36,006 bases of DNA from contig JAKSCL010000265.1 in NCBI GenBank assembly GCA_022360615.1, positions 1 to 36,006 on the forward strand, written 5' to 3'. Each line of letters begins with the position of its first letter. Positions within the stretch are counted from its first letter, which is position 1. The position numbers and the translations under genes were made by a program. Under the pieces are notes generated by a model, which saw nothing but the letters and a program-made list of their open reading frames with translations, ran no database searches and had not been told where the DNA came from. Source of the stretch: Hyphomicrobiales bacterium (GTDB lineage: Bacteria > Pseudomonadota > Alphaproteobacteria > Rhizobiales > JAKSCL01). Shown here one piece after another: positions 6,418 through 23,151 of this stretch.

Positions 6418-7689
6418 TTAGCTCCGGCCTTTCCACGGCACGAGCAAACGCTCCACCTGGCGCATCAAAATGTCGATTCCATAACCGATAATGCCGATGA
6501 GCACGATCCCCATGATCACGATATCCGTCTGCTGAAACTTGGAGGCGGCAATGATCATCTTGCCGGCACCCTTTTCGGCAGCAACGAGTTCGGCAGCGAC
6601 CACCGTGCCCCAGCATACGCCCATCGCCACCCGCGCGCCGGTGAAGATTTCAGGCAGCGAATTCGGCACAATCACTTTCGTCAAGACCTGCCATTTCTTG
6701 GCACCGAGCGAATAAGCCGCATGAACCTTGGAAATGTTGACGCCCGAAACGCCCGCGCGCGCGGCAATCGTCATGATCCACAACGCGGCGAGAAAGAGCA
6801 ACGAGATCTTGCCGGTTTCCCAGATCCCGAACCAGATGATCACAAGCGGAATAAGCGCAAGCGGGGGAACCGGCCGCATGAACTCGACGATCGGATCGAA
6901 CCAGCCCCTGAACCAGCCCGACAAACCCATCGCATAGCCGAGAGGAATACCGACAAGAGCGCCCGCGAGGAAACCGGCAATAACCCGGAAGAGAGACCAA
7001 AACAGGTTCTCCATGAGCGTGACGTTCTGATAGCCCTCATTGGCGATTTCGATAAGCCGGTCCCAAACGGCTTCGGGCGCTGGCAGCCATATCGGCTCCA
7101 TCTGCCAGCCTTTGGAAGGCTCGAAATTGAGACTGCCGCGCGGCGTTAGCCGCACCTCACCGTCGGCAACCGAAACCGGTTGTCCGACTTCGATCGGTTG
7201 ACCGTCGACTTCGATCACCCGGTAGCCATCTTCACCGCCGCCATCGTCATTGTCCCTGACGCGGATGAGCCTGCTGCGCCAAGCGCCCACCGTTGCGGCA
7301 TTGTCATTGGCGAACCCCGTGGAGGCGCTTTCATCGATCTCCGGCTCATCGACGGTTTCATCGAACCTGTGCACACGGACAAAAACGGTGGCGCTATCTG
7401 TCTCGCCAGCGGCATTGACCGCCGTGTAGGAAAAACTCGTATCGCCGACAAACGGACCGGGCACATGCACGGGTACGATTTTTGAGCCAGTGAAAGCGCC
7501 CCAGATCAGAAAAATCGAGATAACGGAGATGACCGATGCGGCGCGGTTAGCCTTAACCGCGCTTTCGTCGCCAAACGTAACCGTCTTGAGGCTTGTGAAA
7601 TCCCTTGCGTGGTGAACGAAACGCTCAGCCTGGTGGACGATGAAGAAGGCGATAGCGAAGATCGCCACATAAAACAGAAGAATTGTCAT
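6418..7689 (-). CDS. tauC: Taurine-type ABC transporter permease with periplasmic insert
   Basis: Inner-membrane permease of the SsuC/TauC family, 423 residues, about 150 longer than E. coli TauC. The C-terminal domain (about 225-420) is a standard BPD_transp_1 permease with the ATPase-contacting loop AAYSLGAKKWQVL near 324-336. In front are two extra membrane segments (about 1-20 and 52-68) and a predicted periplasmic stretch of about 130 residues. Parts of that stretch read like cadherin/Ig-type beta domains (GDTSFSYTAVNAAGETDSAT at 82-101; DGEVRLTPRGSLNFEP at 176-191). Its ATG overlaps the stop of tauB by 4 nt. I believe marine alphaproteobacterial relatives share this long form, so the frame is probably intact. 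The taurine substrate is inferred from the binding protein and regulator. Confidence 0.8.
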   Translation of the reverse strand: MTILLFYVAIFAIAFFIVHQAERFVHHARDFTSLKTVTFGDESAVKANRAASVISVISIFLIWGAFTGSKIVPVHVPGPFVGDTSFSYTAVNAAGETDSATVFVRVHRFDETVDEPEIDESASTGFANDNAATVGAWRSRLIRVRDNDDGGGEDGYRVIEVDGQPIEVGQPVSVADGEVRLTPRGSLNFEPSKGWQMEPIWLPAPEAVWDRLIEIANEGYQNVTLMENLFWSLFRVIAGFLAGALVGIPLGYAMGLSGWFRGWFDPIVEFMRPVPPLALIPLVIIWFGIWETGKISLLFLAALWIMTIAARAGVSGVNISKVHAAYSLGAKKWQVLTKVIVPNSLPEIFTGARVAMGVCWGTVVAAELVAAEKGAGKMIIAASKFQQTDIVIMGIVLIGIIGYGIDILMRQVERLLVPWKGRS

Positions 7690-8492
7690 GCAGCGCTCTT
7701 CGCCCGGCCCATAATTTCCTCCTCCATGTCCCAGATCAGGGACAGGATTTCCTCACGCGTCTCCGCGTAGCCATCCATCTTCTTCACTTCGCGGAGATCG
7801 GCATCGACAGCGATATCTGCGAACGGTAGCTGGTACTCCTTATGGATGCGGCCCGGCCGCGGCGCCATAACGATAAGCCGTTCACCAAGAAGCAAGGCTT
7901 CCTCCACCGAATGGGTGATCAGGATGACGGTCTTGCCCGTCTCCTTCCAGAGCTTCAGGACAAGCCCCTGCATCTTCTCCCGCGTCAGGGCGTCCAGCGC
8001 GCCAAGCGGTTCGTCCATCAAAATCACGTCGGGATCATTCGCAAGACAGCGGGCAAGCGCCACACGCTGCTGCATGCCGCCGGAAAGCTCGTAAACCGCC
8101 TTGTCCTTGAAATCGCCGAGGCCGGTGACGTCCAGAAGGTGGTCGACGATCCCGTCGATCTCCTTTTTGGGCATCTTCTTCATCTCAGGCCCAAAAGCCA
8201 CATTCTTGCGGACATTCATCCATTCAAAAAGCGCGCCCTGCTGAAAGACCATGCCCCTTTCCGGTCCAGGACCCTTAACCGGCACGCTGTGAAGCGCGAT
8301 CCGCCCCTCGGTCGGGGCCAAAAAGCCAGCAACGATATTGAGAAGCGTGGTCTTGCCGCAGCCGGACGGCCCGAGAACGGACATCAATTCCCCGGCCTTC
8401 AATTCCAGCGAAACATTTTTCAGTGCTTGAACGAAATCCCCCGTCGGAAGCTCGAAGCGCATCGATACGTCGTCGATAACAAGGCCGGACAT
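7686..8492 (-). CDS. tauB: Taurine-type ABC transporter ATP-binding protein
   Basis: Cytoplasmic ATPase of 268 residues in the NitT/TauT (SsuB/TauB) family. It has Walker A GPSGCGKTT at 41-49, signature LSGGMQQR at 136-143 and Walker B ILMDEP at 157-162, followed by an ITHS switch-histidine motif. It powers import through TauC. It is the middle gene of the leftward tauA-tauB-tauC operon: 71 nt downstream of tauA, with a stem-loop in the gap, and overlapping tauC by 4 nt. Family assignment is firm; substrate is inferred. Confidence 0.87.
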   Translation of the reverse strand: MSGLVIDDVSMRFELPTGDFVQALKNVSLELKAGELMSVLGPSGCGKTTLLNIVAGFLAPTEGRIALHSVPVKGPGPERGMVFQQGALFEWMNVRKNVAFGPEMKKMPKKEIDGIVDHLLDVTGLGDFKDKAVYELSGGMQQRVALARCLANDPDVILMDEPLGALDALTREKMQGLVLKLWKETGKTVILITHSVEEALLLGERLIVMAPRPGRIHKEYQLPFADIAVDADLREVKKMDGYAETREEILSLIWDMEEEIMGRAKSAA

Positions 8493-8563: not shown

Positions 8564-9568
8564 CTAGTTGGTCGCGACGGCCTCTAGGAAGCTCTTGTCC
8601 ACCGCGCTTTCATAGGAATCGCGGGCCGATGGCATACTGCCTTGTTCCACGAAGAAATCTCCAACCTCTTTCAAAAAGGTCTGGGTTCCACCGCCAAGCC
8701 ACTGCTCCGAGAGCTGTTCCTCAACCGACGGAAAAGCAAAGCCGGCAAGCGTCGCCTTCGCAACGTCCTTATCCATACCGGCATCTTTGGCGATCACCGG
8801 AAGCATCTCCTCCGGGTTTTCCTTCCATTTGGCGTTCATCTCAGCGGTCACCTTGAGGAACTTCGTAAGAAGCTCCGGTTGTTCGGCCGCGAAGTTTGCC
8901 GGAACGCTTGTGACATCGAAAACCTGAATGCCAAGTTCTTCTTTTTCGGCACCGGTCAGAAGCGTGTTGCCATGCTCCTTCATGCGGCGCAGCGCGCCGC
9001 CCCAGCCGCAGACCATATCAAGATTGCCCTGGGCAAACGCCGCCGCGCCATCCGGCGGCGCCATGTCGACGACATTCATCGTGCTGATGTCGACGCCGAA
9101 ATGTTCCATCTGCTTCAGAAAGCCGAAATGCGCAGCCGTCCCGATCGGGACACCGACCTGCTTGCCTTCGAGTTCGCTGGCATTGCCTTTGTCGATCTCA
9201 AGCTCCGAGTAGACAACACAGTTGTCATTCTCGGAGTAGGAAACCGCGACGTCGACGACTTGAATATCCTGGCCCGCCGATGCGGCGACGACGAAAGGCG
9301 GAACACCTTGGCTAATCGAGATATGGACATCGCCGGACGCCATCGCGGCGGACATCGCCGTGCCCGTGTCGAAGGAACGCCAGTTGATCTTTACGCCCAG
9401 TTCCTCCTCGTAAATCCCCTTCACTTTTGCGTATTGAAACGGCATCGGCCATTCCAGGAAATACGCAACCGTCAACTCCTCCACATCGGCCTTTGCCGGA
9501 GAGAACGCGATGCCTCCCATCACCGCAGCCGCAGTGAGCACGCTGAGCATTTTGTGCCTTTTAATCAT
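8564..9568 (-). CDS. tauA: Taurine-type ABC transporter substrate-binding protein
   Basis: Periplasmic binding protein, 334 residues, with a Sec signal peptide (about 1-27, cleavage after AKA). The mature protein begins with a TVAYFLEWPMPFQYAK segment and has DTGTAMSAAMASGDVHIS. I recognise this as the roseobacter-type TauA of the NitT/TauT family. The frame could start at a GTG at 9577, but the ATG at 9568 has AGAGAGG at proper spacing, so I use it. It is the first gene of the tauABC operon, divergent from a TauR-type regulator. Taurine or a close N-methylated derivative is the likely ligand; other sulfonates are not excluded. Confidence 0.83.
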   Translation of the reverse strand: MIKRHKMLSVLTAAAVMGGIAFSPAKADVEELTVAYFLEWPMPFQYAKVKGIYEEELGVKINWRSFDTGTAMSAAMASGDVHISISQGVPPFVVAASAGQDIQVVDVAVSYSENDNCVVYSELEIDKGNASELEGKQVGVPIGTAAHFGFLKQMEHFGVDISTMNVVDMAPPDGAAAFAQGNLDMVCGWGGALRRMKEHGNTLLTGAEKEELGIQVFDVTSVPANFAAEQPELLTKFLKVTAEMNAKWKENPEEMLPVIAKDAGMDKDVAKATLAGFAFPSVEEQLSEQWLGGGTQTFLKEVGDFFVEQGSMPSARDSYESAVDKSFLEAVATN

Positions 9569-9840
9569 CAAGTTCACCTCTCTGGTTGAAATCTGGTTGT
9601 CTGCTTTGGCCGATGCGCGGGTTATCCACCGAAGTCCTCGCGCTGCACCTTGTATGAAAGATCGCCTCTCCCTCGCTTTCGAAAAACGGTTTCGTTTCTG
9701 CCCGCCAACGTCGAAAGTTTAAGCGCAAACATCCAAGCAGAAGCCTCTGCCATGCTGGCCGCGTTGCGCCCCAAACGTGATTTTTTGATTGTGAACGCTC
9801 ACGACCTGCCTACAACCGCATTTACGAGTTTTCCAACCGT

Positions 9841-9884
9841 CTACAACTAAACGCATCAGACAAGACGGCATCCGTTTAGTCCAG
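9841..9884. promoter_or_regulatory. Candidate TauR operator for tauABC (inverted half-sites)
   Basis: ACTAAACG at 9846-9853 and CGTTTAGT at 9873-9880 form a perfect 8-bp inverted repeat, 27 bp centre to centre. The right arm, read on the minus strand, extends to CTGGACTAAACGG (9884 to 9872). That resembles the CTGGAC(T)TAA box I recall for Rhodobacter capsulatus TauR. It sits between the divergent tauA and tauR genes. Binding is inferred from similarity and position only. Confidence 0.5.
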
Positions 9885-10038
9885 AGTATTGCATAGTCAC
9901 TGCCTGAGTAAATTTGCAGCACATCCACCCCGTATTACGGCGGATGTCCTGTTTGAAACGGCCCTCCAGTGTTCTGGTTCAATATTTTCACCGCTTTCAT
10001 AACCCTTGATTTTGCCGCAAGCTATGGTCTCATGACAG

Positions 10039-10063
10039 GTCCAGATTGCACGAAATGCTGGAC
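10039..10063. promoter_or_regulatory. Candidate TauR autoregulatory site
   Basis: GTCCAG at 10039-10044 and CTGGAC at 10058-10063 form an inverted pair of the same hexamer seen at 9879-9884 (arms extend to GGTCCAG / CTGGACC). The site is about 35-55 bp upstream of the tauR start codon, a position suited to autoregulation by a MocR-type protein. Confidence 0.45.
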
Positions 10064-10095
10064 CAGATAGCCAAGGACAAGCGGGAAAGGGCCGG

Positions 10096-11553
10096 GTGCG
10101 GGAGAGTTTGTTTCACGTAGAGCGCTTGGAGGCGGCGACGCTCCAGGCCCAAATCCGCGAAATGCTTGTGACGGCAGTCGTGACCGGCCATCTCCCGGAA
10201 GGCACGCCGGTGCCCTCGACCCGGGCCATGGCAAAACGCCTGAAAGTTTCAAGGAACACCGTGATATCCGCCTATCAGGCGCTTGCCGAAGATGGCTATT
10301 TGATCCCCCGCGAACGGTCGGGCTTCTATGTTGCCAACGATCTGGCGGTCCCGAGCACGGTGTCTGCCGCAGCGAATACCGCGCCGCAAGCGATTGATTG
10401 GACCGCTCGGCTCCGTGTGCAGCCGAGCCTGCAGGACAACATCACAAAGCCGTCCAATTGGCAGGAATACCCCTATCCCTTTATCTATGGACAGGTCGAT
10501 CTTGACCAGTTCCCGATCACGGCATGGCGAGACTGCATGCGCCAGGCAATGGGAAGGAAATGGCTGGGCGCGTGGACCGACGACCGCTTCACCGAAGACG
10601 ATCCCATGCTGATCGAACAGATCCGCAAGCGCATTTTGATGCGCAGGGGCGTTCTCGTTGAACAAGGCGAAATCCTTGTAACGTTAGGTGCGCAGAACGC
10701 TCTCCACATTCTTGCAAACCTTCTGGTCAAACCGGACCGGCAGTTTGCGATGGAGGATCCCGGCTATCCCGACATGCGCAATCTGGTTGACTTGCTGGGC
10801 GGTAAGTTGCGTTCCGTTCCCGTCGATGACGAAGGTCTTGAGACTGAAAAACTCGGCGACGCCGATTTGGCTTTCGTAACCCCCAGCCATCAGCTGCCAA
10901 CCAACGCCACGATGAGTCTCGACCGGCGGCGCAGCCTTTTGCGCTGGGCCGAGGCGAATGACGCACTGATCATCGAGGACGACTACGAGGCAGAAACGAA
11001 CTACGCCGGCGAACCGACGCCAGCGCTCAAATCGCTCGACCGCGCAGGGCGCGTCATCTATGTCGGAAGCTTCTCGAAGTCTCTTTTGCCGGGCATCCGG
11101 CTCGGCTTCATTGCCGGGCCAGCGCCCTTGTTGCAGGAGGCGCGCGCCTATCGCCGCCTCATGCTCCGCCACCCGCCCGGAAACAATCAGCGCGCAGTTG
11201 CACTGTTTCTGGCCCTTGGCCACCACGACGCCCTGGTTGGCCGCTTGCGCAAGATCTATGCGGCCCGGGAACGCGTCATGCGGGAGGCACTTGAAACCCA
11301 GTTGCCCGGCTGGGCCCGGTCTCACGGTTTCGGGGGCACGTCGTTTTGGATGGAAGGGCCGCCGCGCTTCGATGCCAATCTGCTTAGCAAACACGCGCGC
11401 GCAGAAGGCATTTTGATCGAACCGGGCGAGGTTCATTTCAGCCATGGCCCTGCCGGCCGCAACACCTTCCGCCTCGGCTTTTCATCCATCCCGGAAGAGC
11501 GCATTGCGCCGGGCATTAAGCGTCTCGCGGCGGTAGCGCTCGAAATGGTTTAA
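10096..11553 (+). CDS. tauR: MocR-family regulator (GntR-HTH fused to aminotransferase domain), TauR type
   Basis: A 485-residue transcription factor. Residues about 10-80 form a GntR winged helix-turn-helix (PSTRAMAKRLKVSRNTVISAYQAL), then a linker, then a fold-type-I aminotransferase-like domain (about 115-480). The pyridoxal-phosphate lysine is in SFSKSLLPGIRLG, Lys328, so cofactor binding should be intact. The start is a GTG with AAAGG upstream. TauR proteins of this family activate taurine genes; here the gene is divergent from tauABC. The rightward GcvT-fused dehydrogenase genes begin 300 nt downstream and may belong to the same regulon. Family is certain; the TauR assignment rests on context and candidate boxes. 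Confidence 0.8.
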   Translation: MRESLFHVERLEAATLQAQIREMLVTAVVTGHLPEGTPVPSTRAMAKRLKVSRNTVISAYQALAEDGYLIPRERSGFYVANDLAVPSTVSAAANTAPQAIDWTARLRVQPSLQDNITKPSNWQEYPYPFIYGQVDLDQFPITAWRDCMRQAMGRKWLGAWTDDRFTEDDPMLIEQIRKRILMRRGVLVEQGEILVTLGAQNALHILANLLVKPDRQFAMEDPGYPDMRNLVDLLGGKLRSVPVDDEGLETEKLGDADLAFVTPSHQLPTNATMSLDRRRSLLRWAEANDALIIEDDYEAETNYAGEPTPALKSLDRAGRVIYVGSFSKSLLPGIRLGFIAGPAPLLQEARAYRRLMLRHPPGNNQRAVALFLALGHHDALVGRLRKIYAARERVMREALETQLPGWARSHGFGGTSFWMEGPPRFDANLLSKHARAEGILIEPGEVHFSHGPAGRNTFRLGFSSIPEERIAPGIKRLAAVALEMV

Positions 11554-11853
11554 AACAATCAGCATTCAAGCCCCAGGGATAGCGCGTATCGGGTCTTGAC
11601 ATGGATTGGGCAGAGGGAGCGCCTGGAATGCCAGGTTTTCCCAATCTGGACCTGTTCGCTCTCCATCCTCTGCATCTACCATCGCATTACGCTACGCGTA
11701 TGCGCCAGGCTTCACCTTTATGAGCAAAACGAAACCGAGACATTGATAAGCGTTCATGGGCGTGCTTTCCGGCTGGGCCTTCATACCCGGCCCGGCCCGT
11801 TCGCCCTGTAAACCGCTTTTGATCGCCTTGGAAACGAGAACAGGAATTGCACC
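11554..11853 (+). other. Intergenic leader of the dehydrogenase pair
   Basis: 300 nt with no credible gene. A small hairpin, CCTGG (11622-11626) and CCAGG (11631-11635) followed by TTTT, could be a weak terminator for tauR. A TTGACA at 11596-11601 has no matching -10 box. An AGGA at about 11841 serves as ribosome-binding site for the gene at 11854. No second CTGGAC-type box is obvious. Confidence 0.4.
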
Positions 11854-14304
11854 ATGGCATCCATGCCGTCCACCGCCCGCGTCGTTATCATAGGGGGCGG
11901 CGCGGTCGGCGCGTCAGCGCTCTATCATCTCGCAAAGGCAGGATGGACCGATTGCCTGCTCCTGGAAAAAAACGAATTGACGGCGGGTTCGACCTGGCAT
12001 GCCGCAGGCAATGTCCCGACCTTTTCAAGCTCTTGGTCGATCATGAACATGCAACGCTATTCGACCGAACTCTACCGGGGCCTCGGCGAAGCGGTCGACT
12101 ATCCCATGAACTACCATGTGACCGGCTCGATACGGCTGAGCCATTCGAAGGAACGGCTCCTGGAGTTCAAGCGGGTCGCCGGCATGGGCCGTTATCAGGG
12201 CATGGAGATCGATATCCTCTCGCCCGATGAGATCAAGAATTGGCATCCTTTCACCGAAACGCACGATCTCTCAGGCGCACTCTATGATCCTTACGATGGT
12301 GACATCGACCCGGCGCAGCTGACGCAGGCCCTTGCAAAGGGCGCACGCGACCTTGGCGCACAAATCGTCCGCTTTTGTCCGGTCACGGCTGCGCGCCGCG
12401 ACGGCGATGAATGGGTGCTCTCGACACCCCAGGGCGAGGTGCGCTGCGAGTATGTGGTGAATGCGGCGGGATATTATGCGGGACAGATCGGCCAAATGTT
12501 CGGCCGGGACGTGCCCATGATGGTGATGAGCCACCAATACCTTTTGTTCGAGGACATTCCGGAAATCGAGGAGTGGTCCAAGGAAAAGGGCGCAAAGCTG
12601 CCTCTCCTGCGCGACGTGGACAGCTCCTACTATCTGCGCCAAGAGCACTACGGCATGAATCTGGGGCCTTATGAGCGCAACTGCCGGGCGCACTGGACCA
12701 CGTCCGACGATCCCATGCCGAAGGACTTCTCCTTTCAGCTCTTTCAAGACGATCTCGACCGGATCGAATGGTACTTGAACGATGCAGCCGAACGGGTGCC
12801 ATTGCTCCAGACCGCGGGGCTTTCCAAGGTGATCAATGGCCCGATTCCCTATACGCCGGACGGCTACCCGTTGATCGGGCCGATGCCCGGCGTGCCGAAC
12901 GCCTTTGAGGCGTGCGTCTTCACCTTTGGGATTTGCCAGGCCGGCGGCGCAGGCAAGGTGCTCGCGGAGTGGATCGTCGAGGGCGGGACCGAATGGGATA
13001 TGTGGTCATGCGACCCGCGCCGCTTCACCGCCTTTTGCGACGAAGACTATTGCATCGCCAAGGGCATGGAGGTCTACGGGCACGAATACGCGATGCACTT
13101 TCCGCATTACGAATGGCCGGCGGGACGCGGCAAAAAGCTGTCGCCCATCCATGACCAGCTGCTGAGCCTCGGCGGCCAGATGGGCGCTTGCAATGGCTGG
13201 GAACGGGCCAATTGGTTCGCCAAAGACGGCGACGACACCTCGCTCGAAGCGGCCGAGACCTGGGCGCGCGAAGGGCCCTGGGAACCGCGCGTGCGCGAGG
13301 AATGCGAAGCGGTCAGGGATACCGCGGGCCTACTCGACCTGCCGGGCTTCTCCCGGTTTCACCTGAAGGGCGAAGGCGTGGCCGCTTGGCTGTCCCGACA
13401 AATCACCGGCGCCGTGCCGCGCGTGGGCCGGATCGGGCTCGGTTACTTCGCCGACCGCAGGGGCCGCATTGTGACCGAGATGTCGATGGTCCGCCTCGCT
13501 GAGAACGAACTCCTCCTGATGACCGCCGCCCCGGCGCAATGGCACGATTTCGAACTCCTGCAATCGCGCCTGCCCAGGGACGGTTCCTTGACGCTCGAAG
13601 ACAAGACCGAAGCCTATTCCTGCCAAATCCTGACCGGACCGAAATCCCGCGAGATTCTGGCCGGCGTTTGCGGCGCGGACCTGACGCTGCCCTGGCTGAG
13701 CTGGCAGAAATCGGAGATTGCCGGGAAACCGGTCTCCCTTTTCCGTGTGTCTTATGCCGGAGAGCTGGGCTGGGAGGTTCACACGGCCATGGATGACATA
13801 TCCGCCGTGAACGAGGCGCTGATCGCCGCCGGGGGACCACACGGCCTCAAACCTATTGGGATGTATGCGTTGAATGCCCTGCGTCTTGAAAAGGGCTACC
13901 GCGCTTGGAAGCTCGATCTTTCGAGCGACTACAGCATCTTGGAGGGCGGGCTCGACCGTTTCGTGAAATTCGACAAGTCTGAGGATTTCATCGGCAAGGA
14001 AGCCCTCCTTTCGGAGAAGCAGCGCGGTATCGCCAAGCGCTTCGTAACCCTGATCGTCCGGGACAACGACCACGATGCGCCCTACATGTCGGCGCTTTGG
14101 CAAAATGGCGCGGTCGTGGGCGAAACCACATCCGGCGGCTGGGGTTACCGGGTCGATGCATCGATAGCGCTCGGTATGCTGCGTGCCGATCTCGCCGCTC
14201 CGGGCACCGAGCTTGAGGTTGAAATCTTCGGTGAGCGCTATCTAGCGGTCGTTCAGCCGGACCGGCCGCTCTGGGACCCTGAAAACGCAAGACTACGCGC
14301 ATGA
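11854..14304 (+). CDS. Dimethylglycine/sarcosine dehydrogenase-like FAD-GcvT fusion (first copy)
   Basis: An 816-residue two-part enzyme. The N-terminal half (about 8-400) is a DAO-type FAD domain with the dinucleotide motif VVIIGGGAVGAS. It has the STWHAAG motif, whose His49 aligns with the histidine that carries covalent FAD in dimethylglycine dehydrogenase. The C-terminal half (about 430-810) is a GcvT-like folate-binding domain with GLKPIGMYALNALRLEKGYR. Known relatives oxidise N-methyl amines and pass the methyl carbon to tetrahydrofolate. Near the end the usual EAGL is EGGL and the GxDI-type segment reads KLDLS, so it may differ in specificity from the next gene. It overlaps that gene by 4 nt (ATGA). 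The substrate is not known. Confidence 0.85.
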   Translation: MASMPSTARVVIIGGGAVGASALYHLAKAGWTDCLLLEKNELTAGSTWHAAGNVPTFSSSWSIMNMQRYSTELYRGLGEAVDYPMNYHVTGSIRLSHSKERLLEFKRVAGMGRYQGMEIDILSPDEIKNWHPFTETHDLSGALYDPYDGDIDPAQLTQALAKGARDLGAQIVRFCPVTAARRDGDEWVLSTPQGEVRCEYVVNAAGYYAGQIGQMFGRDVPMMVMSHQYLLFEDIPEIEEWSKEKGAKLPLLRDVDSSYYLRQEHYGMNLGPYERNCRAHWTTSDDPMPKDFSFQLFQDDLDRIEWYLNDAAERVPLLQTAGLSKVINGPIPYTPDGYPLIGPMPGVPNAFEACVFTFGICQAGGAGKVLAEWIVEGGTEWDMWSCDPRRFTAFCDEDYCIAKGMEVYGHEYAMHFPHYEWPAGRGKKLSPIHDQLLSLGGQMGACNGWERANWFAKDGDDTSLEAAETWAREGPWEPRVREECEAVRDTAGLLDLPGFSRFHLKGEGVAAWLSRQITGAVPRVGRIGLGYFADRRGRIVTEMSMVRLAENELLLMTAAPAQWHDFELLQSRLPRDGSLTLEDKTEAYSCQILTGPKSREILAGVCGADLTLPWLSWQKSEIAGKPVSLFRVSYAGELGWEVHTAMDDISAVNEALIAAGGPHGLKPIGMYALNALRLEKGYRAWKLDLSSDYSILEGGLDRFVKFDKSEDFIGKEALLSEKQRGIAKRFVTLIVRDNDHDAPYMSALWQNGAVVGETTSGGWGYRVDASIALGMLRADLAAPGTELEVEIFGERYLAVVQPDRPLWDPENARLRA

Positions 14305-16748
14305 CAAAAGCAATTCCCACACAGGCCAGAGCAGTCATCATCGGGGGCGGCGTTGCTGGCTGCTCCGTCGCCTATCACCTGGCAAAACTCGGTTGGTCCG
14401 ATGTCGTGCTTCTGGAACGCAAACAACTTACCTCCGGGACGACATGGCATGCAGCCGGCCTGATTGCCCAGCTACGGGCGAGCAAGAACATGACGAGGCT
14501 CGCCAAATACAGCCAGGAGCTTTACGGCAACCTGGAGAAAGAGACAGATGTCGCAACCGGCTTCCGGCGATGCGGATCGATCACCGTCGCACTGACGCAC
14601 GAGCGCAAAGAGGAAATCTACCGGCAGGCCTCCATGGCGCGTGCCTTCGGCGTGGAGGTGGAGGAGATCTCCGCCGATGACGTCAAAACCCGTTATGCGT
14701 ACGTCAACACGAAGGATGTAACGGGGGCCGTTTACCTGCCCAAGGACGGCCAAGGCGACCCGGCCAATATCGCGCTCGCGCTTGCAAAAGGCGCTAAACA
14801 AAACGGCGCGCAGATTTTCGAAGGCGCGCGCGTCACCGCCATTCATCGATCGCAAGGGCGGGTCAGGGGCGTATCGTGGGAGACGGACGGTGAAGAAGGC
14901 AGAACCGGTGCAGACTTCGTGGTCAATTGCGGTGGCATGTGGGCCCACGAACTCGGACGCATGGCGGATGTGACTGTACCGCTTCACGCCTGCGAGCACT
15001 TTTATATCGTTACCGACAGCATACCCGGCCTATCGCAACTCCCGGTCCTGCGCGTTCCCGACGAATGCGCCTATTACAAGGAAGATGCAGGCAAAATCCT
15101 TCTCGGCGCCTTTGAGCCGGAAGCGAAACCGTGGGGCATGGACGGCATTCCCGCCGATTTCTGTTTCGATCAGCTGCCTGAGGATTTCGACCACTTCGAA
15201 CCCATCCTCGAAAAAGCGGTAAACCGCTTTCCTGTTCTGGAACAGACTGGCATTCACACCTTCTTCAACGGACCGGAGAGCTTTACGCCGGACGATGCCT
15301 ACCATCTCGGTGAAGCGCCCAATCTGAAGGGTTATTTCGTCTGCGCCGGATTCAATTCCATCGGCATTCAGTCCGCTGGCGGTGCGGGCATGGCCCTCGC
15401 CGAATGGATGGAAAACGGCCGCCCTCCCTTTGACCTGGCGGATGTCGACATCAGACGGATGCAGCCGTTTCAGGGCAACAAAACCTATCTCTTTGAACGC
15501 GTGAAGGAGACGCTCGGTCTTCTTTATGCCGATCACTTCCCCTATCGCCAGATGGCGACGGCACGCGGCATCAGGCGCTCGCCCATCCACGAACACCTAA
15601 AAGCGCAAGGCGCGGTCTTCGGCGAGGCAGCCGGTTGGGAACGCGCCAACTGGTTCGCGCGGGAAGGCCAGGAGCGCGCCTATCACTACTCGTGGAAACG
15701 CCAGAACTGGTTCGGCAACGCCCGCGAGGAGCATCTTGCGGTCCGCAACAATGTCGGCCTCTATGACATGACCTCGTTCGGCAAGATCCGTGTCGAAGGA
15801 CCGGATGCCGAGGCGTATCTCAACTATGTTTGCGGAAACGATGTCTCCGTGCCGGCTGGCAAGATCGTCTATACCCAGTTCCTGAACGGCGCTGGCGGTA
15901 TTGAGGCCGATGTTACGGTCACGAGGCTGTCCGAGACGTCTTATGTGGTTGTCACGCCGGCAGCGACGGTTCAGCGCGAACTTCACTGGATGCGCAAACA
16001 TTTGGAAGGCTTCAACACCGTCTTGCTGGATGCGACATCATCGGAATGCGTGCTTGCGGTGATGGGGCCGAACGCCCGGGCGCTGCTGCAAAAAGTGAGC
16101 CCCCATGACTGGTCGAACGCCAACCATCCCTTCGGCACGGCTCACGAGATCGAACTGGGCATGGGTCTCGCCCGCGCACACCGTGTCACCTATGTGGGCG
16201 AACTTGGCTGGGAACTTTACATCCCCGCCGAAATGGCCGCGCACGCCTTTGAGACCCTATGGGCGGCCGGACAGGATGTCGGGCTGAAGCTCTGCGGCAT
16301 GCACATGATGGATTCTTGCCGCATCGAAAAAGCCTTTCGCCATTTCGGCCATGACATCACAGACGAGGACCATGTTCTCGAGGCGGGGCTTGGCTTCGCC
16401 GTCAAACTCAATAAGCCGGAATTCATCGGGCGGGATGCGGTCCTGCGAAAGAAGGAGGAAGGTCTTGCCAGCCGGCTTGTCCAGTTCCTGCTCAAGGACC
16501 CGGAGCCATTGCTCTTCCATCATGAACCGGTCATCCGCGATGGCGAGGTCGTATCATACTTAACCTCGGGCAATTACGGTCACCAATTGGGTGCGGCTGT
16601 CGGACTGGGCTACGTGCCCTGCAAAGGCGAAACCACCGACCAACTGCTTGCCTCGCATTACGAAATTGAGATCGCGGGCACACGCGTAAAGGCTGAAGCA
16701 TCGCTGAAGCCGCTTTACGATCCGAAATCGGAGCGGGTACGCATTTAG
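14301..16748 (+). CDS. Dimethylglycine/sarcosine dehydrogenase-like FAD-GcvT fusion (second copy)
   Basis: An 815-residue paralogue of the preceding gene with the same layout: FAD domain with AVIIGGGVAGCS, covalent-FAD motif TTWHAAG (His50), and a GcvT-like C-terminal half. The latter has the canonical RIEKAFRHFGHDIT segment followed by LEAGL. Residues after the FAD-histidine motif differ from the first copy (LIAQLRAS against NVPTFSSS), which argues for different substrates or successive steps. The start codon overlaps the upstream stop, so the two proteins are made together. No glyA, fold or soxBDAG genes are adjacent. It could be a second demethylase or act on a different N-methyl compound. 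Confidence 0.85.
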   Translation: MTKAIPTQARAVIIGGGVAGCSVAYHLAKLGWSDVVLLERKQLTSGTTWHAAGLIAQLRASKNMTRLAKYSQELYGNLEKETDVATGFRRCGSITVALTHERKEEIYRQASMARAFGVEVEEISADDVKTRYAYVNTKDVTGAVYLPKDGQGDPANIALALAKGAKQNGAQIFEGARVTAIHRSQGRVRGVSWETDGEEGRTGADFVVNCGGMWAHELGRMADVTVPLHACEHFYIVTDSIPGLSQLPVLRVPDECAYYKEDAGKILLGAFEPEAKPWGMDGIPADFCFDQLPEDFDHFEPILEKAVNRFPVLEQTGIHTFFNGPESFTPDDAYHLGEAPNLKGYFVCAGFNSIGIQSAGGAGMALAEWMENGRPPFDLADVDIRRMQPFQGNKTYLFERVKETLGLLYADHFPYRQMATARGIRRSPIHEHLKAQGAVFGEAAGWERANWFAREGQERAYHYSWKRQNWFGNAREEHLAVRNNVGLYDMTSFGKIRVEGPDAEAYLNYVCGNDVSVPAGKIVYTQFLNGAGGIEADVTVTRLSETSYVVVTPAATVQRELHWMRKHLEGFNTVLLDATSSECVLAVMGPNARALLQKVSPHDWSNANHPFGTAHEIELGMGLARAHRVTYVGELGWELYIPAEMAAHAFETLWAAGQDVGLKLCGMHMMDSCRIEKAFRHFGHDITDEDHVLEAGLGFAVKLNKPEFIGRDAVLRKKEEGLASRLVQFLLKDPEPLLFHHEPVIRDGEVVSYLTSGNYGHQLGAAVGLGYVPCKGETTDQLLASHYEIEIAGTRVKAEASLKPLYDPKSERVRI

Positions 16749-17365: not shown

Positions 17366-17842
17366 CTACCAGGAATTGTAAGCCAGGAACTTGCCGGACA
17401 TTTCGATCTTCACCCGGTCGCCCTTAGGGTTCGGCACGCGCGTGATGAACATGTCGAAATCGATTGCCGACATGATGCCATCGCCGAACTCTTCATGGAT
17501 GAGCGCTTTGATCGTGGGACCGTAAACACCCACGATCTCATAGAGACGATAGACGCAAGGGTCTGTCGGCACGGTCTGCGGCCAGACCTTGTTCGGGCAT
17601 TCCTCCAACACGCCGACGGCGTCCGCCGGCAGGCCGAGCAAGGAGACGACGGCTTCCGCTTTTTCCTTCGGCATGGAGTTCATCCCGACGCAGGCCGAGT
17701 GGGTCCACACGGGAGACATGCCGATCTTCTCGGCGATCGCCTCCCACGTGAGACCCGCTTGCTTCTTCGCAGCAAGGATCAGGGCCGCCACATCGTCTTT
17801 GGTCATCATGGATTCTGCTGCAGTCACAGTCATCTGGTTCAT
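17366..17842 (-). CDS. cynS: Cyanate hydratase (cyanase)
   Basis: Cyanase converts cyanate and bicarbonate to carbamate and CO2; the carbamate then gives ammonia and CO2. The protein has 158 residues, the usual size of about 156. It has the N-terminal helical domain ([19 protein letters not shown]) and the C-terminal active-site domain. The three catalytic residues of E. coli cyanase (Arg96, Glu99, Ser122) are matched by Arg99 and Glu102 in [11 protein letters not shown] and Ser125 in GIMSAIDF. It is the fourth gene of the cynABDS operon, 15 nt after cynD. The ATG at 17842 has GAGGAA close upstream. Assignment is firm. Confidence 0.96.
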
Positions 17843-17857
17843 GGTTTCCTCGCTATT

Positions 17858-18763
17858 TCATTGGTTGATTGCGTAAAGAGGGGGGCGGCCCGATTGCTCT
17901 TCGTCGATACCTTCGCCGAAGCGCACGGTTTCCGGCTGGCCGTTCGGCGTCGTGTTTGCTGAACCGGCAAGCTCTTTGGAGCGGCGGGCAAGGAAGTGCA
18001 CGAGATGGTTGCGCACCTTGTAGTAGTTGGGGTGCTCAACGATCTCATCGCGCGAGCGGGGCCGCGGAATGCCCACTTCGACCGATTCCGCCACACGCGC
18101 CTGGGGGCCGTTCGTCATCAAGAGAATGCGATCCGCCAGATAGATGGCCTCATCCACGTCATGCGTGATCATGAAGACCGTCTGCCCGGTGCCGCGCCAT
18201 ATCTTGAGAAGCTCGTCCTGGATCGTTCCCCTCGTGAGCGCATCGAGCGCCCCGAACGGCTCGTCCAAAAGCAGCAATTCGGGATGGATCGCGAAGGCGC
18301 GCGCAATCGACACCCGCTGGCGCATGCCGCCCGAAAGCTGGGAGGGTTTGCGCAGCTCCGCTCCGCCCGACAGGCCCACCATCTCAAGATATTTGTAGGA
18401 ATGGGCCATCACCTTGTCGCGCGGCCAATCCTTATGACGGGCCTTGACCGCGAAGGTGACGTTTTTAAGCGCCGAGAGCCACGGCAGAAGCGAGTAGTTC
18501 TGGAAGACGACGCCACGGTCGAGGCTCGGCCCTCTCACCTCTTTCCCATTCATGATCACGGCGCCTTCGGTCGCCTCGTCGAGGCCGGCCAAAACATTCA
18601 TGATCGTCGATTTGCCGCAACCGGAGTGACCGATGATGCAGACGAACTCACCCTTCTCGATCCCCAAGCTGACATTTTCGAAGACGGTCAGCGGCTCTGC
18701 GGTGTTGCCTGGAGAGGGAAAGCGTTTCGCAAGCCCCTCGATGCTGAGGAATGGTTTTGGCAT
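17858..18763 (-). CDS. cynD: Cyanate/nitrate-type ABC transporter ATP-binding protein
   Basis: Cytoplasmic ATPase of 301 residues in the NrtD/CmpD/CynD group. It has Walker A GHSGCGKST at 45-53, signature LSGGMRQR at 143-150, Walker B LLLLDEP at 163-169 and the switch histidine in MITHD (His201). The C-terminal tail of about 45 residues goes beyond the catalytic core. It sits 9 nt after cynB and just before cynS. The gene order cynA-cynB-cynD-cynS matches known cyanate operons, so cyanate is the likely substrate, though nitrate/nitrite-type relatives are close. Confidence 0.9.
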   Translation of the reverse strand: MPKPFLSIEGLAKRFPSPGNTAEPLTVFENVSLGIEKGEFVCIIGHSGCGKSTIMNVLAGLDEATEGAVIMNGKEVRGPSLDRGVVFQNYSLLPWLSALKNVTFAVKARHKDWPRDKVMAHSYKYLEMVGLSGGAELRKPSQLSGGMRQRVSIARAFAIHPELLLLDEPFGALDALTRGTIQDELLKIWRGTGQTVFMITHDVDEAIYLADRILLMTNGPQARVAESVEVGIPRPRSRDEIVEHPNYYKVRNHLVHFLARRSKELAGSANTTPNGQPETVRFGEGIDEEQSGRPPLYAINQ

Positions 18764-18772
18764 TGCTTGCCC

Positions 18773-19618
18773 TCACTCGCTGTATTGGAGACTGCGCTGC
18801 ACGGCGCCGAAGATCGCATCGAGGAGCATGCCGACGATACCGATCATCAGGATCGAGAAGATCACCGAGGTGAGGTCGAGATTGTTCCACTCGTTCCAGA
18901 CATAGTAGCCAATCCCCGTGCCGCCCACAAGCATCTCGGCGGCCACGATGACCAGCCACGCAATTCCGATGGAAATGCGCATTCCGGTCAAAATGGTGGG
19001 CGCTGCCGCAGGCAGGATCACCAGGAAGGCCGTCTTCAAAGACCCCAATTCATGGGTGCGGGCCACGTTGATCCAGTCTTTTCGCACATTGGCCACCCCG
19101 AACGCGGTATTGATCAGCATCGGCCATATGGAGCAGATGAAAATCACGAAGATCGCAGAGGCTTGGCTGTCGCCGATGACGAACAGCGCGAGCGGCATCC
19201 AGGCAAGTGGCGAGATGGGCTTGAGAATCTGGATGTAAGGATCGAGCGCCCTGTACATCAGCGGCGACATGCCGATCAAAAAACCAAGCGGAATGGCAAT
19301 CGCGGCCGCCAGGAAATAACCGGTCAGAACGCGGTAGAGCGAGTAGCCGATCTGGATGCCGATCCCCTTGTCGTTGGGTCCGGCATCGTAAAACGGGTCG
19401 GAGAGCTGCTCCCAGGCTTTCGTCAGGACCTCCGAGGGAGGCGGAATGCCGGCTTTCGGCGCGCCGCCCCCAGTGAGGAGTTCATACTCGGTGAGTTCGC
19501 CCGCGTCCTGTTCAGGCGGGATGGCAAGCTCCCAGGCAAAGAGAGCAACCGCGAGAATGGCGATCGAAAGAATGATCGATCGCATGCGCAAGGAGAGGGT
19601 TATAGCCGTACTCGCCAT
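18773..19618 (-). CDS. cynB: Cyanate/nitrate-type ABC transporter permease
   Basis: Inner-membrane permease of 281 residues in the NrtB/CynB group. A membrane segment near residues 12-32 is followed by a periplasmic stretch. The BPD_transp_1 domain then has five or so further segments and the ATPase-contact loop ARTHELGSLKTAFLVILP. The start lies 3 nt after the cynA stop, so the genes are tightly coupled. Unlike tauC in this window it has the normal family length. Confidence 0.9.
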   Translation of the reverse strand: MASTAITLSLRMRSIILSIAILAVALFAWELAIPPEQDAGELTEYELLTGGGAPKAGIPPPSEVLTKAWEQLSDPFYDAGPNDKGIGIQIGYSLYRVLTGYFLAAAIAIPLGFLIGMSPLMYRALDPYIQILKPISPLAWMPLALFVIGDSQASAIFVIFICSIWPMLINTAFGVANVRKDWINVARTHELGSLKTAFLVILPAAAPTILTGMRISIGIAWLVIVAAEMLVGGTGIGYYVWNEWNNLDLTSVIFSILMIGIVGMLLDAIFGAVQRSLQYSE

Positions 19619-19621
19619 GGC

Positions 19622-21016
19622 CTATGCCCTGCCGATGGCGAACGATTGGACATACGCCTCCGGTTTATCCGGATCGAACTCCTTGCCCATGATCGTGTAT
19701 TTCTCATAGGTCTCCGTCGGCGCCTCATAGCCGAGCTCGCGCATGATCCGCGCGCAGTCGGCAGCCAGATAGACCTCTTCGGCGACCGCCTTGTAGTCGA
19801 TATCGCCTTCGATATAGCCCCAGCGCTTCATCTGGGTGAGGATCCAAACGCCCATGGAGTGCCAGGGGAAGGGATCGAAATCGATCCGGTCCGGCACATT
19901 CTGGACATTGCCGAGCCCGTCGGCGAAACGCCCGGTGAGCACCTGCTGAACCACCGGGACCGGCTGGTTGAGGTAGTTGGTCGGTGAGATGGCTTCCGCG
20001 ATCTCCACCCGGTTTTCCGCCTGGGCCGCGTATTGCGTGGCGTCGACGATCGCTTTCAAAAGCGCGCCATAGGTGTTCGGCAGTTCAACGGCAAACGCCC
20101 GGCTTGAGGCGAACGCACAGCACGGATGCCCTTCCCAGATGTCCTTTGTCAGGATGTGGATGAAGCCGATCTTTTCCCAAACGGCGCGCTGGTTGAAGGG
20201 GTCGGGCGAGAGATAACCGTCGAGGTTTCCGGCGCGCAGATTGGCGACCATTTCCGGCGGCGGCACAACGCGGATCTGAATGTCCTGATCGGGATCGAGG
20301 CCGTGCTCCGCGACATAGTAGCGAAGCAGGAAATTGTGCATCGAGTATTCGAACGGAACGCCGAATTTGAAACCCTTCCACTGTTTCGGGTCGCGCTTCT
20401 CCAGGTGATCGTTGTGGAGGACGATCGCCTGCCCGTTGATGTTCTCAACCGCCGGCATGATGTAGGGCTCGGCTGTCGACCCGGCGCCCAAGGTCATGGC
20501 GAGCGGCATAGGGGTCAGCATGTGGCTCGCGTCATACTCGCCGTTGAGCGACTTGTCCCGGGCAACGGCCCAGCCGGCCGTTTTGATGACATCCGCGCTA
20601 AGCCCGTGCTTTTCGTAAAACCCGAGCGGCTGCGCCATGATGATGGGCGTTGCGCAGGTAATCGGCACAAAACCGATATTCAGGTCGGTTTTTTCCGGCG
20701 CGCCCAAGGTGTCGAGAAGCAACGCCTTTGCCTTGTCGAGCGGGAACACCGAGGCGAGCGCCGCAGCAAGCGTGGTGCCGCCAAGCATCTTCGCGAAAGA
20801 CCGCCGGGAAAACTCGTTTTGGCCGAAGACGGAGCGAACGACTGCGCTTTCGATGGCGCGCTCCATCATGGCTTCCGTGTCTTTGGGCAGATCGTCATCA
20901 TGGGGCGCGTCGTGGTGGTGGGTATGCCCCTCGGTGCAGGTTTTGCATTCACACGCTGCGCCGTGGACCAGATCGACGTCGCCATCATAAGGGTCGCCAA
21001 GACTCTTCACTGCCAT
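19622..21016 (-). CDS. cynA: Cyanate/nitrate-type ABC substrate-binding protein, Tat-exported
   Basis: A 464-residue NrtA/CmpA/CynA-type binding protein (contains LNIGFVPITCATPIIMAQPL). The frame extends to 21145, but the ATG at 21016 has AGAAAGGA upstream and lies about 80 nt after the predicted sigma-54 start site, so I use it. Export is probably by Tat: RRSFAKML (Arg71-Arg72) precedes a hydrophobic stretch ending near residue 98. The twin arginines sit unusually far in, behind about 70 residues containing Cys22, Cys24, Cys27 and a His cluster (31-39). I recall a similar Cys/His-rich leader in relatives. It is first in cynABDS. Confidence 0.9.
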   Translation of the reverse strand: MAVKSLGDPYDGDVDLVHGAACECKTCTEGHTHHHDAPHDDDLPKDTEAMMERAIESAVVRSVFGQNEFSRRSFAKMLGGTTLAAALASVFPLDKAKALLLDTLGAPEKTDLNIGFVPITCATPIIMAQPLGFYEKHGLSADVIKTAGWAVARDKSLNGEYDASHMLTPMPLAMTLGAGSTAEPYIMPAVENINGQAIVLHNDHLEKRDPKQWKGFKFGVPFEYSMHNFLLRYYVAEHGLDPDQDIQIRVVPPPEMVANLRAGNLDGYLSPDPFNQRAVWEKIGFIHILTKDIWEGHPCCAFASSRAFAVELPNTYGALLKAIVDATQYAAQAENRVEIAEAISPTNYLNQPVPVVQQVLTGRFADGLGNVQNVPDRIDFDPFPWHSMGVWILTQMKRWGYIEGDIDYKAVAEEVYLAADCARIMRELGYEAPTETYEKYTIMGKEFDPDKPEAYVQSFAIGRA

Positions 21017-21105
21017 GGGGGGTCCTTTCTGCCTGTGCCGTGTCCGTTTCGAAGTCGGCTTCCAATCGCCGGATGCCGCCTGCTGCGGCGGACTGGTCCC
21101 CATTT

Positions 21106-21123
21106 GGCAAGCTTCGTGCCAAA
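21106..21123 (-). promoter_or_regulatory. Sigma-54 promoter of the cyanate operon
   Basis: On the minus strand the sequence reads TTTGGCACGAAGCTTGCC. It matches the -24/-12 consensus TGGCACG-N4-TTGC with GG and GC exactly 10 nt apart (GG at 21119-21120, GC at 21107-21108). The start of transcription would fall near 21096, leaving a leader of about 80 nt before cynA. The divergent gene encodes a sigma-54 activator, which makes a chance match unlikely. Confidence 0.85.
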
Positions 21124-21186
21124 GTGAACGAAACGTTAAAGCCAAGTGATTTCAAGCAGTAAGGACGGGTTGGCGTTTCCAAGGAA

Positions 21187-21221
21187 ATTGTGCAATTTTG
21201 TAATTTACGAAATTGCACAAT
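21187..21221. promoter_or_regulatory. 35-bp dyad, likely upstream activator site for CynF
   Basis: Perfect 12-bp arms ATTGTGCAATTT (21187-21198) and AAATTGCACAAT (21210-21221) flank an 11-base centre that is itself nearly symmetric (GTAA-T-TTAC). Sixteen of 17 base pairs of the whole 35-bp site are symmetric. The centre lies about 108 bp upstream of the predicted cynA start site, the normal distance for a sigma-54 enhancer. It also lies just upstream of cynF, so the protein may control its own gene. Confidence 0.8.
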
Positions 21222-21273
21222 CCGGATCACGAAATTGAGTAATCGGGCAGCATCGGATCACGACAAACTGCGA

Positions 21274-23151
21274 ATGAACATCAGAGCCGCAACGGCCAGT
21301 CATGAATGGTTCGCTGCGGCGGTCTCATTCGTGCCCCTGCCCTGCCTGGTCGTCGACCCGTCTTCGGACCGCATCGTTGCGGCCAATGGCGCGGCGTGCC
21401 GCTTGTTTGGTCATGACGTGCTCGCCGCTAGAAGCTTTGCCGCCCTTCATCCCGGATGCGAGCCGGACATCGCCGTCTTCGCCGAGGAAGCGCTTTATCG
21501 CGGAGAGGCTTGGACGAGGCGGATTGACGGCCGCCATCACTCGGGCGCCGAGCTTGCCCTTGAATACGATGGCAAAGCCATCAACCGGGACGGCGCCGTT
21601 TATCTTGTTCTGACAGCATGCGATCTCGTCGAGCATTCACGCCGGGGGGTTGAGGCCGACGATGCCCATACGGCGCGCGCGGGCATCATGGAATGGAATC
21701 GCCTTCAACGTTTCTTCCAGGACATGGCGCGGCTGAATGATCTGATCCTCACCTCGGCCGGCGATGGGATCTATGGTGTCGATGCGGAAGGTAAAACGAC
21801 CTTTGTGAACCCGGCCGCGGAAAAGATGCTGGGTTGGAGCGCTGCCGATCTCATCGGCCGCGATATGCATTCGCTCATCCACCACAAACATCCCAACGGC
21901 TCGCCTTATCCCGTTGAGCACTGCCCGATCTACAATGCGTTCCGCCATGCCCGGATCAATAGGGTCGAAGATGAGATGTTCTGGCGAAAGGACGGAAAGC
22001 CCATCAGGGTCGAATACACCTCGACCCCGATCCTTGACGGGGATGATGTTCTGGGCGCCGTGATCCTGTTCCGCGATATTTCGCAACGCAAGGAGCAGGA
22101 ACGTCAGCTCACCGAAGCGCTGGCGGAAGTCGATCGGTTAAAAAGCCGCCTTGAGATGGAGAATGCCTATCTGCAGGAGGAAATCCGCGCCCAAAGCAAC
22201 CACCGCGAGATCATCGGAAACTCGGCGGCAATCGCGGAAACCATCCGCCAGATCGAACTGGTTGCGCCGACCGATGCCAATGTCCTGATCATCGGAGACA
22301 GCGGCACTGGCAAGGAACTCGTCGCCCAGGCCATTCACGACGACAGCGCGCGGCGCGAACGCCCGCTCATCCGGGTAAATTGCGCAGCCATCCCGCGCGA
22401 GCTTTTTGAAAGCGAGTTTTTCGGCCATGTGCGGGGCGCATTCACAAGCGCATTGCGCGATCGCGTGGGCCGGTTTGAGCTTGCAGATGGCGGCACACTC
22501 TTTCTGGACGAAGTGGGCGAAATCCCCATGGAGTTGCAAGGCAAGCTCTTACGTGTCCTCCAAGACAAGCGCTTCGAGCGCGTTGGCGAGGACACGACGA
22601 GAAAAGCAAATGTCCGGATCATCGCGGCCACCAACCGCAACCTTCAGACCGAGGTGGAGGCCGGGCGTTTTCGCGAAGACCTCTATTTCCGGCTGAATGT
22701 CTTTCCGGTCATGTTGAGGCCGTTACGCGAACGCCCCGATGATATTCCGCGTTTGGCCGAGCACTTCCTCAAGCTTTGCAGCAGGCGGCTTAACATTCCC
22801 AAGCCGACGCTCTCGCGGGCAAATGTTGCGGCCCTCATGGCCTATGATTGGCCGGGAAACGCCCGGGAACTGGAAAACGTGATTGAGCGGGCGGTGATCC
22901 TGTCGCAAGGCGGCCGCCTGAATTTTGAGCTTCCCACCGACACACCGCGCATCGCGGTGATCGACGATGTGCCGGAAACGCAAAAAATAGAAACGGAAGC
23001 AGAAATGCGCGAACGGGAGCGGGCGAACATCATCGCCGCCGTCGAAGCAGCCGGCGGCCGGGTTTCGGGCGAAGGTGGCGCTGCGGAACGCCTGGAGATG
23101 AAACCGACAACACTCTATTCGCGCCTGCGGCGGCTAGGCTTGCGCCAGTAG
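21274..23151 (+). CDS. cynF: Sigma-54-dependent activator with two PAS domains, CynF type
   Basis: A 625-residue enhancer-binding protein. A first PAS-like domain (about 8-120) is followed by a clear second PAS domain (about 152-270) and a short coiled coil (about 272-308). The AAA+ domain has Walker A GDSGTGKE at 341-348 and Walker B Asp412-Glu413. A Fis-type helix-turn-helix closes the protein. The sigma-54 contact loop, normally GAFTGA, reads GAFTSA (388-393, Ser392). The frame runs back to a GTG at 21190, but that lies inside the 35-bp dyad, so the ATG at 21274 is preferred. A sigma-54 activator named CynF accompanies cynABDS in Pseudomonas pseudoalcaligenes; the gene order here supports the same role. 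What its PAS domains sense is unknown. Confidence 0.85.
   Translation: MNIRAATASHEWFAAAVSFVPLPCLVVDPSSDRIVAANGAACRLFGHDVLAARSFAALHPGCEPDIAVFAEEALYRGEAWTRRIDGRHHSGAELALEYDGKAINRDGAVYLVLTACDLVEHSRRGVEADDAHTARAGIMEWNRLQRFFQDMARLNDLILTSAGDGIYGVDAEGKTTFVNPAAEKMLGWSAADLIGRDMHSLIHHKHPNGSPYPVEHCPIYNAFRHARINRVEDEMFWRKDGKPIRVEYTSTPILDGDDVLGAVILFRDISQRKEQERQLTEALAEVDRLKSRLEMENAYLQEEIRAQSNHREIIGNSAAIAETIRQIELVAPTDANVLIIGDSGTGKELVAQAIHDDSARRERPLIRVNCAAIPRELFESEFFGHVRGAFTSALRDRVGRFELADGGTLFLDEVGEIPMELQGKLLRVLQDKRFERVGEDTTRKANVRIIAATNRNLQTEVEAGRFREDLYFRLNVFPVMLRPLRERPDDIPRLAEHFLKLCSRRLNIPKPTLSRANVAALMAYDWPGNARELENVIERAVILSQGGRLNFELPTDTPRIAVIDDVPETQKIETEAEMRERERANIIAAVEAAGGRVSGEGGAAERLEMKPTTLYSRLRRLGLRQ

Follow-up and report, generated by a model that had tools for sequence, protein, structure and literature searches.

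The stretch of DNA analysed here (the window) is 36,006 nucleotides long and is the entire contig C306 of draft genome G000 from a Hyphomicrobiales bacterium (3.9 Mb in 418 contigs, completeness 92.6%). It holds a locus in which genes for a taurine-type importer (tauCBA) and a TauR-like regulator adjoin two tandem genes for enzymes resembling dimethylglycine dehydrogenase (DMGDH), designated DMG1 and DMG2. Each of these parts had been named in an initial annotation and was confirmed, as was the lack of tpa, xsc and tauXY, none of which was found in the window. The importer operon reaches further to the left than the span given there, with tauC lying from 6418. The features of the locus, including the domains for flavin adenine dinucleotide (FAD) and folate, are:

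6418-7689, minus strand: tauC-like permease with an N-terminal extension of ~190 aa (TauC model 227 bits, residues 197-422)
7686-8492, minus strand: tauB-like ATPase (TauB model 268 bits)
8564-9577, minus strand: tauA-like substrate-binding protein (TIGR01729 168.6 bits; best PDB match E. coli TauA, 6ssy)
10035-10048, minus strand: TauR-type box CAATCTGGACCTGT between tauA and tauR, matching 8/10 positions of the Rhodobacter capsulatus TauR consensus
10096-11553, plus strand: TauR-like MocR-family regulator (GntR and Aminotran_1_2 domains)
11642-11655, plus strand: second TauR-type box, the same 14-mer, ~200 bp upstream of DMG1
11854-14304, plus strand: DMG1, DMGDH-like with FAD and folate domains, predicted dimethyl-to-monomethyl step (human DMGDH 5l46, E 1e-171)
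14301-16748, plus strand: DMG2, second DMGDH-like enzyme, predicted monomethyl-to-free-amine step (rat DMGDH 4pab, E 2e-131; dimethylglycine oxidase 1pj5, E 1e-118)

DMG1 (816 aa) and DMG2 (815 aa) are ~35% identical, and both carry the DAO, FAO_M, GCV_T and GCV_T_C domains with every Pfam cut-off exceeded. The closest structure to DMG1 is mammalian DMGDH; DMGDH and Arthrobacter dimethylglycine oxidase are about equally close to DMG2. Solved homologues make the folds certain. Alignment to human DMGDH and 1pj5 placed the covalent-FAD histidine at H49 in DMG1 and H50 in DMG2, the His/Tyr dyad at H227/Y260 and H233/Y258, and the folate-site acid at E542 and D537, all of them invariant in orthologs; the reference residues in dimethylglycine oxidase are H225/Y259 for the dyad and D552 for the folate-site acid. 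Because the FAD histidine, the dyad and the acid are retained, both proteins should be working FAD- and folate-linked N-demethylases. The previously described coupling of the two genes and their divergence after the FAD-histidine also held up: the ATG of DMG2 and the stop of DMG1 share 4 nt (ATGA; GCGCATGACAAAA), and the motif past the histidine is WHAAGN in DMG1 and WHAAGL in DMG2, each invariant within its own ortholog group.

Conservation of the gene order was likewise borne out. Eight further genomes of the order have DMG1 orthologs (56-74%), with DMG2 directly after in all 8, and DMG2 follows DMG1 in about 75 of 80 GTDB loci, chiefly from Rhizobiaceae and Rhodobacteraceae. An ordered pair kept to this extent excludes chance. 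Two further gene types were seen repeatedly at such loci: a homocysteine-S-methyltransferase-like gene, often between DMG1 and DMG2 (29 loci, e.g., L068 13467-14354), that fits the betaine and MmuM models poorly, and a low-scoring subgroup of PF06253 (MttB) that recurrently adjoins the pair (L264 2196-3809, L223 12977-14521, L039 1154-2770).

Targeted searches, on which all statements about the whole source genome are based, showed the window regulator to be its sole TauR-like protein. It is 41-43% identical to regulators adjoining tpa (L045; 41% for P. denitrificans), and no other protein of the genome strongly matches the L045 regulator, whose gene stands between tpa and xsc (424 bits for the window regulator, 66 for the next). 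The NCBIfam model PdxR is passed by the window regulator (364, cut-off 320); since the L045 regulator passes it too (351), the PdxR name is uninformative. The TauR site of R. capsulatus has the consensus CTGGACYTAA (PMC5320631). At both boxes of the window CTGGACCT is exact and the final two consensus bases (AA) are unmatched; the repeats are not clearly paired, only single strong boxes being seen. For the string ATCTGGACYT the window has 3 occurrences as against 0.06 expected, a flattering comparison given that the string was picked from the published consensus after the sequence had been viewed; the third occurrence, at 23850, is off the locus. In other genomes, the box was found upstream of xsc in L037 and L101, and upstream of tpa in L250 with one mismatch; L045 has two copies of it in the tauA-tpa interval.

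The window TauA lies under the cut-off of the taurine equivalog TIGR01729 (168.6 vs 304 bits). It is 60-75% identical to proteins from six plasmid records, the next matches, annotated TauA, being at ~32% and less, and in sequence terms it is a member of a sharply separate subfamily. Of 20 genome loci examined for the wider subfamily, those with an adjoining tpa and/or xsc are L250, L251, L254, L257, L261, L263, L265 and L266; importer-subfamily loci with tpa are L045, L250, L251, L254, L226, L265 and L266, with xsc in further loci. The window TauB is 73-79% identical to the TauB proteins adjoining tpa/xsc in L045 and L219, and full-length TauC, with its extension, is kept only in this TauABC subfamily. 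The extension, absent from ordinary TauC, comprises two hydrophobic segments and a weakly immunoglobulin-like part (Big_9, E 4e-4); the TauC homologue in genome G168 is 642 aa in length.

In E. coli TauA, the amine-binding Asp205 distinguishes the protein from SsuA, and Thr132 bonds the amine (PMC6906117). Residues at the positions of the E. coli TauA contacts Q30, G61, G79, E106, T132 and D205 (PMC6906117) were compared in 28 subfamily members. All 28 retain Gly61, Gly79 and Asp205, with Asp replacing Glu106 and Phe replacing Gln30. The Thr132 position is hydrophobic in 28/28 (Ala, Val, Ile or Met; Ala in the window). A methylated amine as ligand would be consistent with losing the threonine that bonds the amine, but this is no more than a hint, since loci without demethylases have lost it too.

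Evidence on function also comes from other lineages, in which the pair, or a related enzyme, again stands beside taurine genes. The arrangements are:

L045, a Salaquimonas metagenome-assembled genome: tauCBA / tpa, tauR, xsc, then LysR / DMG1, DMG2, MttB
L040 (G008): tauABC, DMG3, DMG1, DMG2, SDR, tpa, with tauABC-DMG3-DMG1-DMG2 all in a single direction
L038: tauCBA / XRE, DMG1, DMG2
L037 and L101: XRE, DMG1, DMG2, xsc
L219, a Paracoccus seriniphilus plasmid: XRE, tauABC, cupin, DMG1, DMG2, etfB, etfA, folD, purU, then xsc
G168 (L264/L270), a single 25-kb contig: tauABC-mttB; DMG1-DMG2; pta-xsc; AptA-type aminotransferase

L045 encodes an aminotransferase with 79.5% identity to a Tpa-annotated protein, and on the P. 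seriniphilus plasmid tpa is found at another place. On a DMG1 tree, the taurine-linked members fall in 5 separate places (the window with L045; L040 with L219; L038; L037/L101; L264/L270), at least 4 of which are forced by well-supported branches. L038 and L270 are long branches with unsure exact positions, and a first tree without L219 and G168 gave three placements. A single origin for the taurine-linked pairs was rejected on the basis of the five places. The importer subfamily is present in 21 of 385 genomes of the class. With the neighbourhood set at 20 kb and the genome at 4 Mb, adjacency of the importer by chance would be expected at ~0.0003 per DMG locus, as against at least 5 observed in ~100; this is our own rough figure, which ignores relatedness and leaves G168, found via TauA, out of the count.

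DMG3 is a third DMGDH-like type (~40% to DMG1 and 74% among the DMG3 proteins; L040 8925-11348, L225 2611-5046, L249 7826-10261) that recurs beside the TauABC subfamily of the window, with etfBA-folD-purU or MttB. In strain SC52, DMG3-etfBA-folD-purU adjoins tauR-tpa / tauABC on one plasmid stretch, and in Ruegeria conchae the DMG3 type and MttB adjoin tauABC.

From the lack of tpa, xsc and tauXY in the window, it had been suggested that the local task might be to make taurine rather than to break it down. The source genome does not support this: xsc is present, split between the ends of contigs C76 and C273, in a cluster that holds ackA and the acylating sulfoacetaldehyde dehydrogenase SauS (787 bits, cut-off 600), an AptA-type omega-aminotransferase is encoded on C162 (700 bits, cut-off 500), and relatives keep xsc/tpa beside the pair. 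Because the genome has xsc, ackA and the AptA-type enzyme, taurine formed here could be degraded. The xsc cluster is of a sulfoacetate type (L193 and L194, on C273 and C76), with a Tct-like transporter, SauS, succinyl-CoA-ligase-like subunits, xsc broken by the contig end, and ackA. Neither TauD nor MttB was found in the source genome, and no quaternary-amine demethylase was found in the window.

We think it probable that the locus, controlled by TauR, takes up N-methylated taurines and removes their methyl groups in two steps, thereby feeding the xsc route. TauABC would import N,N-dimethyltaurine and/or N-methyltaurine and, in relatives with MttB, possibly trimethyltaurine too. The FAD of DMG1 would oxidise one N-methyl group to the iminium, the carbon passing to tetrahydrofolate as 5,10-methylene-tetrahydrofolate, and DMG2 would remove the next methyl likewise to leave taurine. 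An aminotransferase encoded off the locus (AptA-like here, Tpa in relatives) would convert taurine to sulfoacetaldehyde, which Xsc would cleave to acetyl phosphate and sulfite. It is from the gene content, the catalytic residues, the common promoter box, the recurrent linkage to taurine genes and the genomic xsc, ackA and AptA that we infer the substrate, the order of DMG1 and DMG2, binding by TauR and the action of AptA on taurine. Of the accounts that cover the shared box, the type of importer and the recurrent linkage at once, a role in N-methylated taurines is the simplest.

Several observations weigh against this assignment. The pair is commonest in loci that have no taurine genes, beside quaternary-amine demethylases: across the 80 GTDB loci, an MttB-like neighbour was found in 33, a homocysteine-methyltransferase-like one in 29, a Rieske enzyme in 9 and none of the three in 14, and taurine genes lie within 10 kb of the DMG1 ortholog in only 2. 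Because of these neighbours, the pair would usually provide the second and third steps of quaternary-amine demethylation. No convincing taurine-specific residues were found in DMG1 or DMG2, the taurine-linked DMG1 members having no marker residue, and for this reason sequence alone cannot decide the substrate. The hydrophobic TauA pocket is also present in tpa/xsc loci without a demethylase and so cannot prove that the ligand is methylated. A targeted search of the 92.6% complete genome returned no close Tpa (best 33-35% identity). The pair in L045 comes with a separate LysR regulator and lacks an upstream TauR box. Dimethylglycine from a GbcA-like Rieske enzyme, encoded on C206 of the source genome (544 bits, cut-off 670), might need DMG1.

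The principal rival is that the pair supplies the cell with its dehydrogenases for dimethylglycine (DMG1) and sarcosine (DMG2) in a glycine-betaine route, put under TauR by loss of intervening genes with their substrate unchanged. The GbcA-like enzyme would make dimethylglycine, the window pair is the only such pair in the source genome, and a dimethylglycine and a sarcosine dehydrogenase serve betaine in Ruegeria pomeroyi (PMC4744692). The layout of the window may derive from an L045-like arrangement, in which the taurine module and LysR-DMG1-DMG2-MttB are adjacent, with tpa, xsc and lysR lost and DMG1-DMG2 left behind tauR; such a history would also allow the capture of a dimethylglycine/sarcosine pair by TauR, and the lack of taurine-specific residues in DMG1 speaks for the rival too. 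We nevertheless consider this rival rather unlikely. It leaves unexplained the recurrence with tauABC/xsc at four or more places in the tree, as well as the tauABC-DMG3-DMG1-DMG2 operon of L040 and the P. seriniphilus locus. The Rieske gene on C206 has no recognisable betaine-gene neighbours, and DMG2 is not required for sarcosine, since the genome has two heterotetrameric sarcosine oxidases (SoxBDAG sets, one split across two contigs). Nor are the methyltransferases that adjoin the pair known betaine types: the homocysteine-methyltransferase-like neighbour, at 75 bits on a betaine model with a cut-off of 338, was rejected as a betaine methyltransferase, and the MttB-like neighbours score 345-383 bits on PF06253, apart from a second MttB group in the same genomes at 588-795. 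Judged from these scores, glycine betaine is not a given as substrate even in the loci with MttB- or homocysteine-type neighbours.

Another N-methylated zwitterion, such as a derivative of beta-alanine or another omega-amino acid, could be imported by the TauABC subfamily and demethylated by the pair, with taurine genes co-regulated since the cells meet both. AptA-type transaminases accept beta-alanine, and the importer subfamily is found also without tpa/xsc, beside aldehyde dehydrogenases or unrelated enzymes (L224, L227, L252). However, xsc, which is specific to sulfoacetaldehyde, adjoins the pair in L037, L101, L045, L219 and L270, and the box at DMG1 is found on taurine genes as well, which makes such a substrate improbable. 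An accidental neighbourhood of an intact taurine importer and regulator with an unrelated betaine-type pair, to which the 300-bp gap between tauR and DMG1 and the frequency of the pair in other contexts would lend themselves, is very improbable in view of the 14-nt box in common and the linkage repeated in separate lineages. The N-methyltaurine locus proposed in the initial annotation stands in part: linkage to taurine genes in separate lineages, the boxes at tauA/tauR and DMG1, and a TauABC subfamily with tpa-tauR-xsc neighbours speak for it, N-methylated taurines being probable substrates and dimethylglycine/sarcosine or another methylated amine less likely ones, while the idea of taurine synthesis as the task is unsupported.

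The components resemble several known systems. DMG1 and DMG2 share with mammalian DMGDH (5l46, 4pab) and Arthrobacter dimethylglycine oxidase (1pj5) the DAO and GcvT architecture, the covalent-FAD histidine, the His/Tyr dyad and the folate-site acid, but unlike these they are two tandem paralogues linked to taurine genes. Betaine demethylation in R. pomeroyi (SPO3400/SPO3396; MtgBCDE; PMC4744692, PMC12478193) similarly employs successive dimethylglycine and sarcosine dehydrogenases after a quaternary-amine methyltransferase, a likeness taken from the published pathway; that system is without tauABC, TauR and xsc, and by score the MttB neighbours of the DMG pair fall outside the main PF06253 group. 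With the TauR-tpa-xsc-tauABC dissimilation loci of Rhodobacter and Paracoccus (PMC5320631), the window has in common the regulator type, the importer, a candidate operator with CTGGACY and the tauCBA / tauR layout. In contrast to those loci, DMG1-DMG2 stands in place of tpa and xsc. The N-methyltaurine dehydrogenase of Alcaligenes faecalis and Paracoccus versutus converts N-methyltaurine to sulfoacetaldehyde for Xsc, releasing methylamine by oxidation on the ethyl side, whereas the route proposed for the window would move the methyl group onto folate and yield taurine.

The open literature that we searched, which covered few subscription papers, contained nothing relevant on the catabolism of N-methyltaurine or dimethyltaurine, and no bacterial genes for demethylating methylated taurines. 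Each component is of a known kind (FAD/folate demethylases, TauABC, TauR, Xsc); their combination for methylated taurines did not appear in that literature. We give an even chance to a new route that runs from import by the TauABC subfamily, through optional loss of the first methyl group of taurine betaine by an MttB-type enzyme, to DMG1 and DMG2, Tpa/AptA and Xsc, with the DMG genes in the TauR regulon. DMG1-DMG2 would then be a portable remover of the second and third methyl groups, paired by different lineages with differing importers and first-step demethylases. Marine algae and animals contain methylated taurines; if the proposal is true, one-carbon, nitrogen and sulfonate-sulfur metabolism would be joined in a single regulon, and a substrate would be at hand for enzyme pairs annotated merely as 'FAD-dependent oxidoreductase'. 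Paracoccus seriniphilus DSM 14827, which is available from a culture collection, would then allow the question to be tested directly.

Next to the locus lies a cyanate/nitrate unit (17366-21145) that encodes a CynS cyanase scoring over its cut-off and an NrtABC-type importer, with a gene for a sigma-54-type regulator (21190-23151) divergent from it. On contig C313, a gene for a DMG2-like enzyme (40%) overlaps a class III aminotransferase gene beside amino-acid ATP-binding cassette transporter genes (L044, 10806-14560).

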